From contig OZ004583.1 in NCBI GenBank assembly GCA_963924555.1, forward strand, positions 8,570,582 through 8,634,581: a DNA stretch of 64,000 nt, read 5' to 3'. The notes beneath the pieces were generated by a model. It made no database searches and was not told where the DNA came from. It worked only from the letters and a program-made list of their open reading frames with translations. The stretch is from Crambe crambe. Taxonomy: Eukaryota > Porifera > Demospongiae > Poecilosclerida > Crambeidae. Position 1 is the first letter of the stretch; each line of letters begins with the position of its first letter. The translations under genes were made by a program, and so were the position numbers. Below are positions 1,507 to 10,300 of the stretch, piece after piece.

Positions 1507-1861
1507 ATGACATATTTAATACTTCTAATATTTCTCTGGAAACTATCGGAGTCAACAGTACTAGAATGTTCCAGCACTAAGTCTTGTCCTGATGAGTTTC
1601 GCTGTGAATGTCAAGCTCCTAATGTTCTGAGGTGGGAAGTTAGGCTCCCTAATGGCACAACGTGTAAGATATCCCATCCTGATGATGCTAATACTATAGG
1701 TACTAGAGAGTCTTTAGGCACTTGCCAAGCAAGTGTAATACTCTCTGGCCTAACTAATTTCATGTACACTTCAAGCCTATATATAAACTTAACGAATCAG
1801 ACAACTATAAGTTGTCAAGGTAGCCGTGGTGGAATTGAGAGACTGACTCTAAATGCAACAA
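1507..1861 (+). other. Gene 1 exon 1: signal peptide and Ig-like domain
   Basis: It opens with MTYLILLIFLWKLSEST, a typical signal peptide, followed by an Ig-like domain whose Cys/Trp layout (CPDEFRCEC, then LRWEV, then TTISCQG) parallels the DCPGD Ig exons of the minus-strand genes. It ends at a strong GTAAGT donor in phase 1. Several N-glycosylation sequons are present. Confidence 0.8.
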
Positions 1862-4800
1862 GTAAGTGAACCTTACTGTACAGCTATAGTTTTTCACTGA
1901 GTTATTTTTGGAGAGTGATTCAATTAGCTAACTGCACAACATTAGTAGCTAGCTACTAAGCACAGCTGCACTGTTCTAGCTATTATAGCTATCTATAAAA
2001 ATGGCACAGATAACACAGCATATTAAATCACACTAATTCACTGATCTGTCAGCCTGGGGGGAAAGGTGTCTAGCTAGTTAACCAAGGTTCCACTGCCATA
2101 CAGGCTCCCCTTCACCTCCAATGAACTTGAACTTCAGTGTATTAATTGGTACAAGTGTAAGACTGCAATGGAACCCTCCCCTGGACAATGGTGGAGTACC
2201 AATCACTGGTTATCAGATCTTCATCAACTCATCTGAAGACTCATTTGAAGATGTATTGGTCAGTAATGACACTGAAGTGACCATTATCCTGAATTCCACT
2301 GGAGAATACTTCATACAAATAAGAGCCATCAATTGCATTGGTGTCAGTTCAAATTTATCAGACTCAATCAGTATCATAGGTATACTGCATAGCCAAATTT
2401 GAAGTGAATAGCCATGGAGTTAATTTTATACTATAGATCCTTGTGCATTCAACAGTTCCCTCCCCACTGGACTTCACATTGTGTCTGAGGAAAGAGATCT
2501 CTTAGTTTTCCAATGTGAAGATGGACTAGTCCCACAGAAGACAGTGATGGCGACATGTCAACCAGATGGGACCTGGAACCCTGACCCTCTTAACTATTCC
2601 TGTGACATTCATACTACTACTGAAGATATTGGAACTAATCATACTACAACAATAACTTTGTGTGAGTAAAGGACTGAAAGTAGCTATTTCACCTGTAGCA
2701 TTGTCTAAAAAATCTTTATTTAGTTAACAATAATACTTCAACATTATCAGTACCATCAAATCGCTTGAAGACATGGCAGATCATTGTCATAGCAGTTTGT
2801 TGCTTTGCTGTTGTGATATTCTGCTTTGCCATTGGAGTGACACTAGCAGCAATTGGAAGAAAATCAGGTATTAATTAATGTCATTGTAATGTTAGAAGCT
2901 AGCTTCATGCATGCAACATTATATTTTATTTTAGTCAAAAATAAAAACTTCAAAAGAGATAATGGGTACGTTTATATTCTATTTTTATATATAACTCTTA
3001 CTCTTATTTTATTAATTCATGACAGATTATCACAGGTAAGCCAGGTCAAATTATCAATAAGCAACATTAACAGAACTGCAATGTAGAGTGGAGATGGAGA
3101 GTATAATCACATTACATTTGATATTCCTCAACAGAATAACCAACCACATGTAAGTTAAGGATATTTTGATGCAGTGGAGTAGCTATATTAGTAATTTATA
3201 GGGAAGTAATGCAGCATTGGACACATCAAGTGAATACAGTATTCTTCGAGCAGAAGATATAAGCAATGGTTCACGGGTAATTAATTTATTAGCTAATATA
3301 ATCATTCAAATAACTTTAACTACTCTTCTCAGCCACCACGACGGATTACTGATTATGACTACTGCACAGTTCCAAATCAACTGACAAGCAATAACAATGA
3401 AGTGAGTTAGAGAGCGAGAGTCACTTTTATCACGGTCAAGGCAGTATTATTCTAATCTTTCAGCTATCATTGAGGTATGCCGAAGTAAAGTCTAATTCAT
3501 CAAAAAAAGAGAAAGAAACAACTTTCTCTGCCAGTGTATCTCGAGCACCAGTTGAATATGCAGCTGTGATAACTAAAAAACGTCCATCAGGAAATCAAGT
3601 ATCTCAAGCACCAGTTGATGCAGCTGAAAAAAAGACTAAAAAGCATCCATCAGGTAATCAAGTATCTGAAGCACCAGTCGAATATGCAGCTGTAAAGAAA
3701 GATAAAAAGCATCCATCAGGTATACCCCATGGACCATGGCCCATGCATGCTTGTATACAATGTGTCATAATACATGTATATTGACTGCAATGATCATTGC
3801 ATTTATAGATTTGCTGCTCAACTTGGATACCATTTTAATTCAGCTCCGTGACATCTCTTCCAAGTGGCTTGAACTGGGCACTGCATTTGAATTATCACAT
3901 GATCTCCTCCATTCCATTAGGACAAAGTGTGATGGGAAGGATTTTGACTGCTTGATTGAAGTCTGTGAAGCATGGCTGAGGAGTTTTCATGCTAGCCAGT
4001 CCCACCCAACATGGAAGGCAGTGAGCAAAGCACTCGACAGGATAGGCTGTAATCAATTGTCCAAGGAACTAAGCGAGATTTATATTACAGGTATTAGTGA
4101 TATTATAACTAATGGTTTGCTTTCAATAACACACAATTGCACAGCCACATCAGAAACATGTTTCTCAACTGTACCCGTCAGCTATGCAGTTTATGAATAT
4201 GTATATATGACAACAAAAGATACATGTTTCTAGGTTCAGTCAGGGTTATTATAAACATGGGTTTTTGATTACAATAAATAGCTCCTTATTCTAAACACCC
4301 AAAATAATCTCTGATTCAGAATTAGCGTAAACATTATGTAGTGTGTGTACCAGTGGGAGATTGTAAGAGGGGGAAGGCTACATTATAATAGTTATCCAAA
4401 GTTTGGGTAAATGGGGACAGACTCCAAAGTAGCTAGCTAATGATTATGATGACTAACATTAGCTTTAATGCCCAGACTCTGAATGCAGAGTTGAAGCCTC
4501 AGAGTTTTGGGAATGTGGCACTTTACTGCCTTTGATATAGCTAGTCTTCGATTTCTTCTCTGCATGAATTTTGCTTTAGCTACCATAATAATTTGACAAG
4601 ACTAGCTATATGATTGGTATACAGAGATCACCAGCCCTCCCCTTTAACATAATTATTAGGGTGTGATTTACAACAAATGCTATGAAAATGTTAAGCTATA
4701 ATAGCTTATGTTTTTGGTAGCACAGTTGACATTCACTGTGTTTTGTTCATGCAGGTGAGCTTCCACAGCGAAAGTGTGATGTTGTGGAAGGCCCAGGTAC

Positions 4801-4900
4801 CACTTACGATGATATTCTACTAGTCGGTGCTACAGTCAATAATGACGAGTCACTGCCTCCTCCTATACCTCCAAAATTATTTGATTATGATGACTCATAG
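1507..4900 (+). CDS. Gene 1: Ig-FN3-CCP single-pass receptor with ITIM/ITSM-like tail and Death domain (643 aa)
   Basis: Model: exons 1507-1861, 2104-2379, 2437-2661, 2724-2867, 2935-2965, 3026-3035, 3087-3149, 3202-3276, 3333-3401, 3464-3719, 3809-4090, 4755-4900. The total is 1,932 nt, an exact open frame. Residues 1-17 are a hydrophobic signal peptide; then come one Ig-like domain (to about 118), FN3 (119-211), CCP (212-286, four Cys and a Trp) and a membrane segment (about 305-330). The tail carries tyrosine motifs at Y380, Y421, Y448, Y490 and Y613, a Death domain (about 506-590) and a PPIPPK SH3-type ligand (631-636). ITIM and ITSM motifs recruit SH2 phosphatases or adaptors, and Death domains assemble signalling complexes in animals; combining both in this receptor is inference. 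Ectodomain and membrane introns are phase 1; the tyrosine exons are small phase 0 exons. The 10-nt exon is the least certain part. Confidence 0.82.
2104..2379 (+). other. Gene 1 exon 2: FN3 domain
   Basis: This is a 92-codon exon with FN3 landmarks: a proline-rich start, LQWNPP, GGVPITGYQIF, and YFIQIRAINCIG near the end. Both introns are phase 1. The NC-[IA]-G motif after strand F is shared with the minus-strand FN3 exons. Confidence 0.85.
2437..2661 (+). other. Gene 1 exon 3: CCP/sushi domain plus stalk
   Basis: Four cysteines are spaced as in CCP modules (DPC, FQC, ATC, YSC), with the usual Trp between the third and fourth. A Thr-rich stretch follows and leads to the membrane segment, probably an O-glycosylated stalk. 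It is bounded by phase 1 introns. Confidence 0.83.
2724..2867 (+). other. Gene 1 exon 4: transmembrane segment
   Basis: A continuous run of about 25 hydrophobic residues (beginning WQIIVIAVCCFAVVIF) is followed by a basic GRK stop-transfer signal. This gives a type I single-pass topology with the triplet outside and the tyrosine/Death-domain tail inside. Confidence 0.85.
2935..3401 (+). other. Gene 1 exons 5-9: small cytoplasmic tyrosine exons
   Basis: There are five short exons: 2935-2965, 3026-3035, 3087-3149, 3202-3276 and 3333-3401. The 10-nt exon (acceptor GACAG, donor GTAAGC) is needed to join phase 2 to phase 0. The last three are 63, 75 and 69 nt in phase 0, each carrying tyrosines: EYNHI (Y353), SEYSIL (Y380, a match to the ITIM consensus) and YDYCTV (Y401, Y403). 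Being symmetric, each can be skipped without shifting the frame. Confidence 0.65.
3464..3719 (+). repeat. Gene 1 exon 10: ITIM motif plus threefold 21-residue tyrosine repeat
   Basis: The exon encodes an LRYAEV motif (Y421), then three copies of a repeat of about 21 residues with the core APVEYAAV followed by KKHPSG. Copies 1 and 3 keep the tyrosine in VEYAAV (Y448, Y490), which fits the ITIM consensus. Copy 2 reads APVDAAEKK and has lost it. The exon runs from phase 0 to phase 1 and ends before GTATAC; read-through would stop soon after. Confidence 0.75.
3809..4090 (+). other. Gene 1 exon 11: Death domain
   Basis: This 94-codon exon carries the Death-fold signature: a helix 1 start of DTILIQLRDIS, then KWLELG, LLHSIRTKC, CLIEVCEAWLR, HPTWKAVSKALDRIG and LSKELSEI. 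The W-x-x-LG early motif and the PTW-x-x-V-x-x-AL segment are characteristic of Death domains. It could be a divergent DED or CARD, but the PTW motif favours Death. Phase 1 at both ends makes it a mobile unit. Confidence 0.82.
4755..4900 (+). other. Gene 1 exon 12: C-terminal tail with ITSM-like and SH3-ligand motifs
   Basis: The last coding exon lies after a 664-bp intron and ends in TAG at 4898-4900. It encodes TTYDDI (Y613), which fits the T-x-Y-x-x-[VI] ITSM pattern, and LPPPIPPKL, which contains a PxxPxK class II SH3 ligand. The acidic end reads FDYDDS. Confidence 0.72.
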
Positions 4901-6776: not shown

Positions 6777-7327
6777 TTATAGGTTTGAGTCACTGTCTAC
6801 CATTTTAAAGCCCCATTTTGATGATACTTCCCAGACTTTGCTCCTTGATGACTCAATACCTCCTTTAGAACTACTTTCAGTAATTGCCGATGATCTTGAG
6901 GACTTTTGAGATAAAATCTCCTTACTGCTTCTTGATGATCCAAGCACAGAGGCAATGTTGCTTCCAGGTTTAGCTCCAAGAATGCTTAACATCCTGTTAT
7001 CGAGACTTAATTTTTGTCCATCAGATGGTGGTACATTGCTTCTACTGCTTGATATGTTTAATGCATCATCGATTGAAAGTAGGCTGGCTTCTCCATCAGC
7101 TCCAATTATCCTTATTGTGCTAGGATCAAGACAAAACTCACGTCCAATAGACTCCACTGGCTTATAACGCTTTATTAATTTTTTTTTCCGAGAGGTTCGG
7201 TCTTGGAAGTTAAAAAAAATCAGCAATAGCACGAATATTGTTATAGTTAATAAACCAATTAAAGCCAGCAAGGATGACAGGAGTGAAGTTACTGTTATGA
7301 AACTTATCCCTAGGCTAATAAATGTTG
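6777..7327 (-). other. Gene A last exon: transmembrane segment and Ser-rich tail
   Basis: It begins after a TTGCAG acceptor. A hydrophobic helix (around LLALIGLLTITIFVLLLIFF) is followed by a stop-transfer cluster, RKKKLIKRYK. The tail of about 135 residues is rich in serine (SSRSS repeats) and has no recognised domain. Near the C-terminus SSKWGF resembles SSWGF in the gene C tail. The stop is TAA at 6777-6779. Confidence 0.85.
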
Positions 7328-10300
7328 CTGCAAGGAAAGATTTATTTTTTAAAGGCAGGTATATATTTTTATGATTGTTAATTAGCTAACATTTATCAGA
7401 GCTAAACTATTTTATTTTATCCCCCCTCCCTTTCCCTCTTCTACATACGGTCTGCTGTGCAGTGATATCTCTCAGGTGCTGGATCCCATGACCCAGTATC
7501 ATTACAGATTGCTCTGACTTCAGAGGTAGGAAGAAAGCCCATGTCACACTTGAACACCACTTCAGCTCCCTTTGTAGTTCTTGAGTAGTCTCCAAGACTA
7601 CCATTAGTGGGAGGTATAGGATCACCACAATTGACTAAAATTAAATGAATTATAATTAATATGTATTCCCACTCTACAATATTCAATCAAATTATAATTA
7701 GGGTAGATCTTGCTTAGTATGAGCTTAGCATTCCACATTTACACACCAACCTCAGGCTCCCTGTAGTGAGCTTGTATTTTACTCAGCTAGTACAAATTAT
7801 CACTCACTGAATTCAATGTCTCTTAATACAACTGGACTGCTTTCTCCTTCACAGTTTACTGAAATTATGGTTGCCATATATTCCACATTATATCTCAATG
7901 TCACATTCCAAGCTGTGGAATGAACTATGTTGGAACTCGGATGAGAAATAGGTTTAGGAGTGAGAGCAATCTTGTAGCTGTGCACAATGACTTCAGTGCC
8001 ACTCCCCTCTGGTGGATTCCATTCAAAAGTTACTATGATGTTGAATTTGTTCTCATATGTATCCGTGTGATTGAAATTGGTGGGCATTAGGGGAGCTGCA
8101 AGAAGAAGTAGAGGTTGTGTTATGGCAACCTTTACCAATTAGAAGAGCATGAGAGCATGCATGCATAATAAAAGCTATAAACATGTTATTTGATAGCTAC
8201 CCTAATTAAAAGGATTATACCTGATCTGTTAACAGCAACGATCATACTGTCATTAGCAAGCTGTGGGGTAATGCTACATTCCACTTTAGTGCCATTCATT
8301 GTGACATTCTTTAACAGCTTAAGTAGTAGAGTAGACTGTAAGGTGTCCTCATCAATAGTGCCTATTAGTACTGCACTGATATTCATATTCAGATTATCTA
8401 CACTATCAGGAACTGATAGGAGATCATATGTGATCTGAAGAGGCGCAAGTCCTGGAAAACTGACAGTCCATATTAAATGTAAATCCTCATTGTTCGAGTT
8501 TATAACACATTTGTACAATATGGTGTCTCCTGGACAGTCAATATCATTAAAAGTCGAATTATGCTTAAGAACTGTTAGCACTGCAGTTGCTGAATAATAA
8601 TAATACACGCAACAGTGAAGTGTATATATAGTGACTCAATTATTATTATGATTATACCTTCAATATGAGTACAGTTATGTGACTCAGGTGCTGGTACCCA
8701 TTCTCCACGCATGCTACAGTTGGCAGTCATCACATCAGAAGGAGTAAAACCCTCATTACACTGGAATGTAACGAAATCTCCAACTTTACTACCAGTATAG
8801 TTGCCAAGATAACCATTAGTAGGAGGACTAGGTATACCACAATCAACTACATCAAGATTAATGATACCAATTATATTATTTGTTTGGTAAGAGCTAACAA
8901 GAATAGCCCTTGCTAGCAGTGGTTAGTATGATGTACATAGCTAATTAAATTATGTGGATTAAAAAACTCACGGAATTCAATTTTCTCTAGTGTGACAGGC
9001 CCACTGACTCCAGCACAGTTCTCAGTGGTTATTATGGCTGTATATATGGAGTTGTAATTCAGTGTCACGTTCCAAGATGTTGTGCTGATCACATTGGATA
9101 CAGGAGCAGACAGGGGTTTAGGCATGATTGTTACCATGTATGTGTCTATGATGATATTTGGACCACTTCCTTGGGGAGGATCCCATCCGAATGTGATTGT
9201 GATGTTTGATATTTCATGATGTTCTCTTATAATTGAAAAGTTTGCTGGTGGACAGGGAACTGTAGAAGGAACTAGGTGTATAGAAACTCCAACTTCTGAA
9301 GATATAACATACCTGATGTGTTAACAAGGATTATTGTAGAATCACTATCAAGGTTTGGAGCAATGCTACATTCCAATATAGTTCCATTCATTGTAAAGTT
9401 TTTAAGAACAGTCAAAGTAATTTCAGATCCTATATATTGATCCTCTTGATATTTAGTTAGATTAACAGTAATGTTCCTATCAAAACGAGCCAATGAAGAA
9501 GTGCCATCATATGTGATATTGATGGGCATGTATCCAGGAAAAGTGATATGCCATATCAGATGAATCACCTCACTGTTTGACAGTATGTTGCAGTTGTAAA
9601 TAATAGTGTCTCCTGGACAGTCAATGAGTGTTGAGTCCTCATTTATTGCCGTGAGCACTAAACTTACTGATGCTAAGAAATATGATCATAAAGATTACTC
9701 ATAATGTCATTGTGGTTACCTTCAACAAAGGTGCAGTTATGTGCATCTGGTATGGGATGCCATCTTGCATCTGGTGAACAAGTACTGTTGACCTCAGCAG
9801 AAGGTCGAAAGCCCTCATTACACTTGAAGATAACAGTATTTCCCAATTTTGAATCAGAGTAGCTTACAATGATACCATTAATAGGAGGAAGAGGGATACC
9901 ACAGTCCACTGTACGTACATACATAAATAGTGGATTTCTAACTCTAGTATAATTAGCTATCATAATCATACTCACAAAATTCAATGTTATGTAATGTGAT
10001 TGGCATGCTTGCTCCAGCACAATTCTCTGCAGTTATAGTGGCTGTGTACTCCATGTTATAGTTCAGTGTCACATTCCATGATAAGGTACTAATCACATTC
10101 GAAATTGGATGAGACAAGGATCTAGGCATTATTGATACTTCATAAGTATCTACAATGACTGCAGGACCACTGCCTTGAGGAGGGATCCATTCAAATGTGA
10201 CAGTTATATTTGAAGTTCTGTGGTATTCTCTTGTAATATTGAAATCAACAGGTGAAAATGGTACTACAGGAAAGTACATTTAAACAAAGTTTTGCTTCGT

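Follow-up and report, generated by a model that had tools for sequence, protein, structure and literature searches.

Can a single sponge receptor hold, in one cytoplasmic tail, both tyrosine motifs of the SH2-binding type and a Death domain? The question is raised by a 64,000-nucleotide stretch of the Crambe crambe genome (C5:8570582-8634581, contig OZ004583.1; hereafter the window), near the start of which an earlier note, made from the sequence alone, had proposed such a gene. We find the same order of parts on two other chromosomes, C3 and C13, which bears the proposal out. As judged by sequence comparison, three clusters, on C5, C3 and C13, each contain predicted short receptors with two conserved tail tyrosines and predicted long receptors whose tails combine several Yxx[ILV] motifs with a Death domain and end in a proline-rich stretch. 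The explanation that we favour, with middling confidence, is that the window gene encodes the long-tailed effector within a recognition family organised like paired receptors, in which SH2 docking and Death-domain assembly would be joined in one tail.

Gene model and domain architecture of the receptor

Splice-consistent modelling places the receptor gene between an ATG at window position 1507 and a stop at 4900, with 12 GT-AG exons that encode 643 residues and phases that all close; the model is weakest at exon 6, which is 10 bases long. In window positions, the exons are as follows.

1507..1861, + strand: exon 1, signal-peptide-like start and cysteine-rich N-terminal domain where an Ig domain would sit, the Ig label being unconfirmed (gene model)
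2104..2379, + strand: exon 2, fibronectin type III (FN3) domain (Pfam fn3, E 1.1e-7)
2437..2661, + strand: exon 3, CCP/Sushi domain (Pfam Sushi, E 3.1e-4)
2724..2867, + strand: exon 4, stalk and single transmembrane segment at about 2774-2842 (hydropathy)
2935..3149 (2935-2965, 3026-3035, 3087-3149), + strand: exons 5-7, juxtamembrane tail with EYNHITF (Y353) (gene model)
3202..3276, + strand: exon 8, SEYSIL, of immunoreceptor tyrosine-based inhibitory motif (ITIM) form, Y380 at 3235-3237 (gene model and motif count)
3333..3401, + strand: exon 9, DYDYCTV (Y401, Y403) (gene model)
3464..3719, + strand: exon 10, LRYAEV (Y421, 3476-3478), VEYAAV (Y448, 3557-3559) and VEYAAV (Y490, 3683-3685) (gene model)
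3809..4090, + strand: exon 11, Death domain with HPTW (hhalign to Death profile)
4755..4900, + strand: exon 12, GELP start, TTYDDI (Y613, 4805-4807), PPPIPPK (4856-4876) and stop (gene model)

The gene is predicted to encode a cell-surface protein whose inner tail contains phosphorylation motifs, of a type that turns immune cells off, and a Death domain, of a type that sets off cell death or inflammation. Most of the parts that the earlier note had named were recovered. Both ectodomain modules lie over their Pfam cut-offs, namely fn3 at residues 122-207 (32.5 bits against a cut-off of 25) and Sushi/CCP at residues 230-260 (21.5 bits against 20.7), and the single membrane segment agrees with hydropathy, in that the top twelve 19-residue stretches by hydrophobicity start without exception at residues 300-312, within the exon 4 segment, with a maximum of 3.17 at residues 305-323. 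The tail motifs SEYSIL, LRYAEV, VEYAAV (twice) and TTYDDI are all present, and an independent numbering of their tyrosines gave the same positions; the proposed PTW signature and PxxPxK motif correspond to HPTW in exon 11 and PPPIPPK in exon 12. Exon 10 additionally contains a Lys-rich repeat between its tyrosine motifs.

The long-tailed architecture recurs on two other chromosomes

Relatives of the receptor were sought across 143 Mb in 119 contigs with searches that score the best candidates only, so that absence from them is no proof. In tblastn searches (best 69 of 391 candidates scored), the receptor tail (residues 333-501 and 596-643) matched its own locus only, and the Death exon found relatives at 26-39% identity, the best-scoring of which lie on C13 and C3. 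With the C3 Death exon as query, three near-full exons and one fragment were obtained on each of these two chromosomes. Around the C3 Death exons and at one C13 locus, we found CCP, membrane and tyrosine exons together with an exon carrying PPPIPPR or PPPLPPK, and on both C3 and C13 a membrane segment is followed by Yxx[ILV] motifs, a Death exon and PPPxPP[KR], in that order. Because this order recurs, we take the tyrosine-motif and Death tail to be the architecture of a family and not a chance gene model.

The exon boundaries follow the same pattern: in the window, in L064 (on C3) and in L063, the Death exon is in phase 1 at both borders, opening on an Asp codon and being followed by a G[DE]LP exon, and the counterparts of exon 12 read GDLP...PPPIPPR and GDLP...PPPLPPK. 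When L064 was compared with L063, the nonsynonymous and synonymous divergences (dN, dS) were 0.21, 1.12 for the Death exon; 0.30, 1.42 for the tyrosine exon; and 0.29, 1.15 for the C-terminal exon. All three exons are thus under purifying selection as protein.

Sequence-based assignment of exon 11 as a Death domain

The Death domain had been proposed together with a profile check against Death, DED and CARD, which was borne out in its profile-comparison part and not in its Pfam part. A Pfam scan of window exon 11 gave no match at all, and three paralogous Death exons from C3 and C13, although spanning nearly the whole of PF00531 (E 0.084, 0.041 and 0.0042), scored 13.4, 14.5 and 17.6 bits, under the gathering score of 22.6. 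Using hhalign, window exon 11 alone aligned to a Death profile from the same genome with a probability of 94 (E 1.4e-7), against 1.9 for DED and 0.2 for CARD, and exon 11 with its paralogs reached 96.7 (E 3.6e-10), against 5.6 for DED and 0.7 for CARD. Two sets of 100 shuffles, of the family and of the window exon, gave at most 7.3 and 15.3, respectively, and an unrelated control, an alignment of N-terminal exons, scored 0.1 against the Death profile. This profile was made of exons passing the Pfam Death cut-off in this genome (11 of 30 fetched loci), the CARD profile of 8 of 22 matches and the DED profile of 6 of 29. Considering these comparisons, we regard the assignment of exon 11 as a Death domain as settled by sequence.

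Searches beyond this genome returned no relatives. The Death exon found nothing in the PDB as a single sequence, its five-sequence profile gave ten PDB matches, all unrelated (best E 0.07), and there was no match in a phage collection. An AlphaFold2 (AF2) model of the Death exon alone has five helices at a predicted local distance difference test (pLDDT) score of 60 and was not used as evidence; Foldseek with this model returned nothing at E <= 0.001, and the two Fas/FADD entries among its 20 chance-level rows were likewise left unused.

Tyrosine motifs in the receptor tails

Outside the Death domain, seven of the nine tail tyrosines of the window receptor lie in Yxx[ILV] motifs, where 20,000 shuffles gave a mean of 1.39 (P 5e-5). 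Four have the ITIM form [SIVL]xYxx[ILV] (shuffle mean 0.36, P 1.5e-4) and one the immunoreceptor tyrosine-based switch motif (ITSM) form (P 0.048). Tyrosines of ITIM form follow one another at distances of 41, 27 and 42 residues, and these spacings do not fit the immunoreceptor tyrosine-based activation motif (ITAM) pattern (YxxL/I, 6-12 residues, YxxL/I). Tail motifs on C3 are AEYSTI, VEYNTL, LIYADL and VVYSDI; those on C13 are EEYSTL, EEYSEI, EQYSVL, EQYSVI, LVYADL and VVYSDI, of which the first four were picked up by scanning for motifs and not from full exon models. In the corresponding tail pieces, which are hand-picked stretches around motifs and homologous exons rather than full gene models, Yxx[ILV] is found at four of four tyrosines on C3 (P 0.00135; three of ITIM form, P 0.001) and at six of seven on C13 (P 0.00025).

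The same motifs could be read differently, as mainly endocytic sorting signals, such that the surface level of a Death receptor would be set by clathrin uptake, with no phosphatase signalling. The seven Yxx[ILV] tyrosines of the window tail overlap the sorting consensus, and most C13 motifs do not have the ITIM residue at position -2, both of which speak for sorting. Nevertheless, we judge this reading unlikely, as the residues after the tyrosine (YDDI and YAEV, and YEEV in short tails) resemble SH2 sites, the window tail has its four strict ITIM forms, and multiple motifs per tail occur in all three clusters.

Short-tailed relatives and paired organisation

A cluster of short-tailed receptors lies on C5 at 7.93-8.45 Mb, with 15 open, near-full-length short-tail exons out of 25 matches. 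These end in forms of PEYEEV...NVSYGPV and by reading keep both tyrosines in 15 of 15 (a pattern script counts 15 and 14, the last exon reading NAAYGPV). Two genes and two further exons on C3 end in P(L/F)YEAI...NVAYGH, three exons on C13 end in PLYED(V/I)...NVAYGHL, and the short tails of all three chromosomes stop without a Death domain. The short-form membrane segments that were read have, on C5 and C13, no charged residue that could serve an adaptor and an Arg near the inner edge on C3.

Ectodomain identities follow the cluster: in FN3, the window receptor shares 75-91% identity with six C5 short forms (the comparison took in 6 of 15 other C5 FN3 exons) and 24% and 28% with one long form each on C3 and C13, and the C3 long-form FN3, with X at six residues of its frame break, shares 96% and 93% with a pair of C3 short forms. 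Cluster-mates consequently combine alike ectodomains with unlike tails. Ectodomains that group by cluster, with tails that group by type, are typical of paired receptors and arise by exon exchange or concerted evolution.

The earlier note had also suggested, from the giant genes with the same ectodomain modules beside it, that the receptor could be the signalling partner of an allorecognition or immune locus. The giant neighbours were rejected as matching partners, given that their FN3 domains are just 26-36% identical to that of the receptor, compared with the far closer C5 short forms. Its near ectodomain relatives are instead the short-tail receptors 0.12-0.64 Mb away on C5.

The giant genes themselves fill window positions 6777-62900 on the minus strand and consist of repeated Ig-like, FN3 and CCP exons. 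In the one that ends at 6777-7385, a membrane segment comes with a Ser-rich tail, which puts this gene in a signalling class unlike the tyrosine/Death receptor.

At L064 and L065 on C3, a long-tail Death unit with a frame-broken FN3 exon has a short-tail receptor immediately upstream of it, an arrangement that hints at alternative splicing between tails. Short and long tails would then be alternative isoforms in some clusters at least, and not separate paired genes, the intact upstream short-receptor exons on C3 perhaps splicing to either tail. We consider this improbable, as the window gene has an intact ectodomain of its own and no short tail, the nearest short-tail exons are >0.1 Mb away from it, and the long gene on C13 also carries its own ectodomain exons.

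The N-terminal domain

The Ig label that had been given to the N-terminal domain was not confirmed: Pfam gave no match for the window domain, and other profile and structure comparisons did not establish it. A PDB profile search returned a single match to an unrelated chain (E 0.9), an AF2 model of the N-terminal exon had a pLDDT of 41 with beta strands only, and the C13 counterpart matched Pfam Ig_3 at E 0.013, below the cut-off. In profile comparisons, the C5 N-terminal exons matched giant-gene and C3/C13 exons with probabilities of 0.8 and 0.6, inside the shuffle range (maxima 1.1 and 5.7, 60 shuffles each), and the C3/C13 exons matched giant-gene exons with a probability of 12.7 in a comparison made without shuffles. 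We take the C...W...C pattern and the position of the domain to be compatible with an Ig fold.

Among eight paralogous genes, the ratio of nonsynonymous to synonymous differences (pN/pS) was 0.81 for exon 1 (bootstrap 0.56-1.13), 0.35 for FN3 (0.24-0.51) and 0.40 for CCP (0.22-0.64), in sets that hold only matches at E 1e-6 or better and leave out more diverged N-terminal exons, and from which 16 matches (5 FN3, 2 CCP, 3 CCP2 and 6 transmembrane) were removed for stops or short length. In sliding windows along exon 1, pN exceeded pS in three of nine, at codons 21-40 (0.27, 0.23), 31-50 (0.34, 0.25) and 81-100 (0.08, 0.03). This pattern would be consistent with a recognition surface and is no proof of positive selection.

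Instead of a recognition receptor, the window gene might encode a developmental or adhesion dependence receptor like UNC5 or p75NTR, signalling survival with ligand and Death output without it, with no self/non-self role; the combination of FN3 with a Death-domain tail and the proline-rich end would suit such a protein. We hold this to be quite unlikely, since large clusters with short and long tails, cluster-specific ectodomains and a faster-changing N-terminal domain better suit recognition families, and since the Pfam matches of the window receptor (fn3 and Sushi only above cut-off) include neither the ZU5/UPA of UNC5 netrin receptors nor TNFR cysteine-rich repeats.

Candidate signalling machinery and a model for the family

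Elsewhere in the genome, an SH2-SH2-tyrosine phosphatase order occurs at C18:6539084-6540942, the phosphatase being the genome's best match, and at L069 a tandem-DED open reading frame is followed by a caspase open reading frame. In Death searches, 150 of 150 scored matches pass the cut-off (best 150 of 965 candidates). The SHP-like locus and the tandem-DED caspase could read a tail such as that of the window receptor.

For the paired-receptor-like explanation that we favour, we infer function, ligand, expression, allorecognition role and SH2 recruitment, which would run as follows. The N-terminal domain would bind a ligand, upon which a Src-type kinase would phosphorylate the receptor tail. 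The ITIM-like tyrosines would dock an SH2 protein, for example the SHP-like phosphatase, TTYDDI and PPPIPPK would dock SH2/SH3 adaptors, and the Death domain would build a Death-domain complex, with caspase or NF-kB signalling as its output. Short-tailed relatives, whose ectodomains are nearly identical, would compete by binding ligand of the same kind while giving no Death output, so that the ratio of short to long receptors and phosphatase recruitment would set a threshold for the Death signal, the whole system acting like a paired immune or self/non-self receptor.

Several points weigh against this explanation. In L064 and L065, long copies on C3, the adjacent FN3 exon is frame-broken, L062 has a CCP2 frame change and a stop in one tail exon, and L066 and L067, two of the three C13 copies, had no match to the C3 tail within ~6.7 kb upstream; these breaks and missing tails leave the window gene and a single C13 gene as the long genes seen unbroken. 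The strict ITIM form is present in just two of the six C13 Yxx[ILV] motifs (P 0.046), the C3 and C13 P values lean towards the claim because the pieces were partly picked by motif, and Yxx[ILV] also fits endocytic sorting motifs. Moreover, the Ig identity of the N-terminal domain is unproven, its pN/pS is not above 1 and would be accounted for equally well by relaxed constraint, and the SHP-like locus on C18 is a prediction from three match positions.

A further-reaching version of the paired-receptor explanation would make the three clusters a sponge self/non-self system, in which the ITIM-type switch and Death effector of the long partner both restrain and execute rejection or cell death. 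We put this forward tentatively and think it rather unlikely; if true, it would place paired-receptor logic at the base of animals.

Other observations in the genome

A dense array of SH2 exons, many of them paired a few hundred bases apart, lies at C5:1417826-1656255 and is possibly an expansion of tandem-SH2 proteins, and large arrays of tyrosine-phosphatase matches on C12, C9 and C13 suggest that phosphatases expanded alongside the receptor family. CARD matches occur within the C5 receptor cluster region (C5:8038532 and C5:8198119), and Death exons over the cut-off lie near the cluster (C5:8708366 and 9013085-9049994); the region may be shared with other death-fold proteins. Serial Death matches in unusually long open frames of up to ~2,500 residues were seen at C15:1393400-2122533. 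Finally, two cathepsin/silicatein-like exons were read: L087 has Ser in the catalytic place (GDCGSSYAF), a silicatein hallmark that hints at a siliceous sponge, and the better match L086 has Cys (GQCGSCYAF).

Comparison with known receptor systems

In searches of an open-licence library, covered by titles and abstract starts, we recognised no invertebrate receptor that joins ITIM-type motifs and a Death domain. Among vertebrates, the KIR, LILR and FcR-like receptors are clustered and carry near-identical ectodomains on long ITIM-like and on short tails. Vertebrate paired receptors are also treated in the available part of PMC2413239. Unlike them, the short forms described here bear two tail tyrosines and the long form bears a Death domain.

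Death receptors are reportedly bound by SHP-1, going by the title of a work of Daigle from 2002. The ectodomain of Fas consists of TNFR repeats, whereas that of the window receptor consists of FN3 and CCP. Within its cytoplasmic tail, Fas/CD95 combines a Death domain with an ITAM/ITIM-like Tyr291 (PMC4572867), which makes it, from the passages at hand, the nearest earlier example of an ITIM-like tyrosine occurring together with a Death domain; this tyrosine is situated inside the Death domain, while the window motifs occupy separate exons before and after it. In sponges, Ig-TIR receptors and Death/CARD NLRs are innate receptors that use TIR or death-fold domains (PMC6040629, PMC7308585, PMC9505182), but they have TIR in place of Death or are NACHT proteins, and the available passages describe no tyrosine-motif tail.

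Closest in working principle, as far as the available text goes, is FcoR of Botryllus schlosseri. Like the window family, FcoR comprises clustered type I receptors; they belong to a multigene allorecognition locus and are described with V-type Ig and sushi domains, ITIM/hemITAM and, in the tail, core Yxx[ILV] motifs (PMC12065747). The likeness is one of described features, with the term 'death domain' occurring 0 times in the FcoR text seen (PMC12065747). The Alr receptors of Hydractinia are likewise an invertebrate multigene family of Ig-type recognition receptors that bear motifs of ITIM/ITAM type, and the passages of PMC12065747 and PMC11999971 describe no Death domain for them. A 2025 review states, in the part available, that sponges, cnidarians and ascidians do not have conserved candidate allorecognition proteins in common and that the mechanisms are not understood (PMC12065747). 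Against this background, clustered receptors in which a tyrosine logic like that of Botryllus and Hydractinia is wired directly to a Death domain are concrete, testable candidates, and they suggest that individual receptors of an early animal can unite tyrosine-switch with death-fold signalling. FcoR has two C2 Ig domains where the window receptor has FN3, one CCP and a Death domain, so that the latter does not have the FcoR domain plan, and neither FcoR nor Fas defines the window family, which is set apart by its FN3 domain and separate Death exon.

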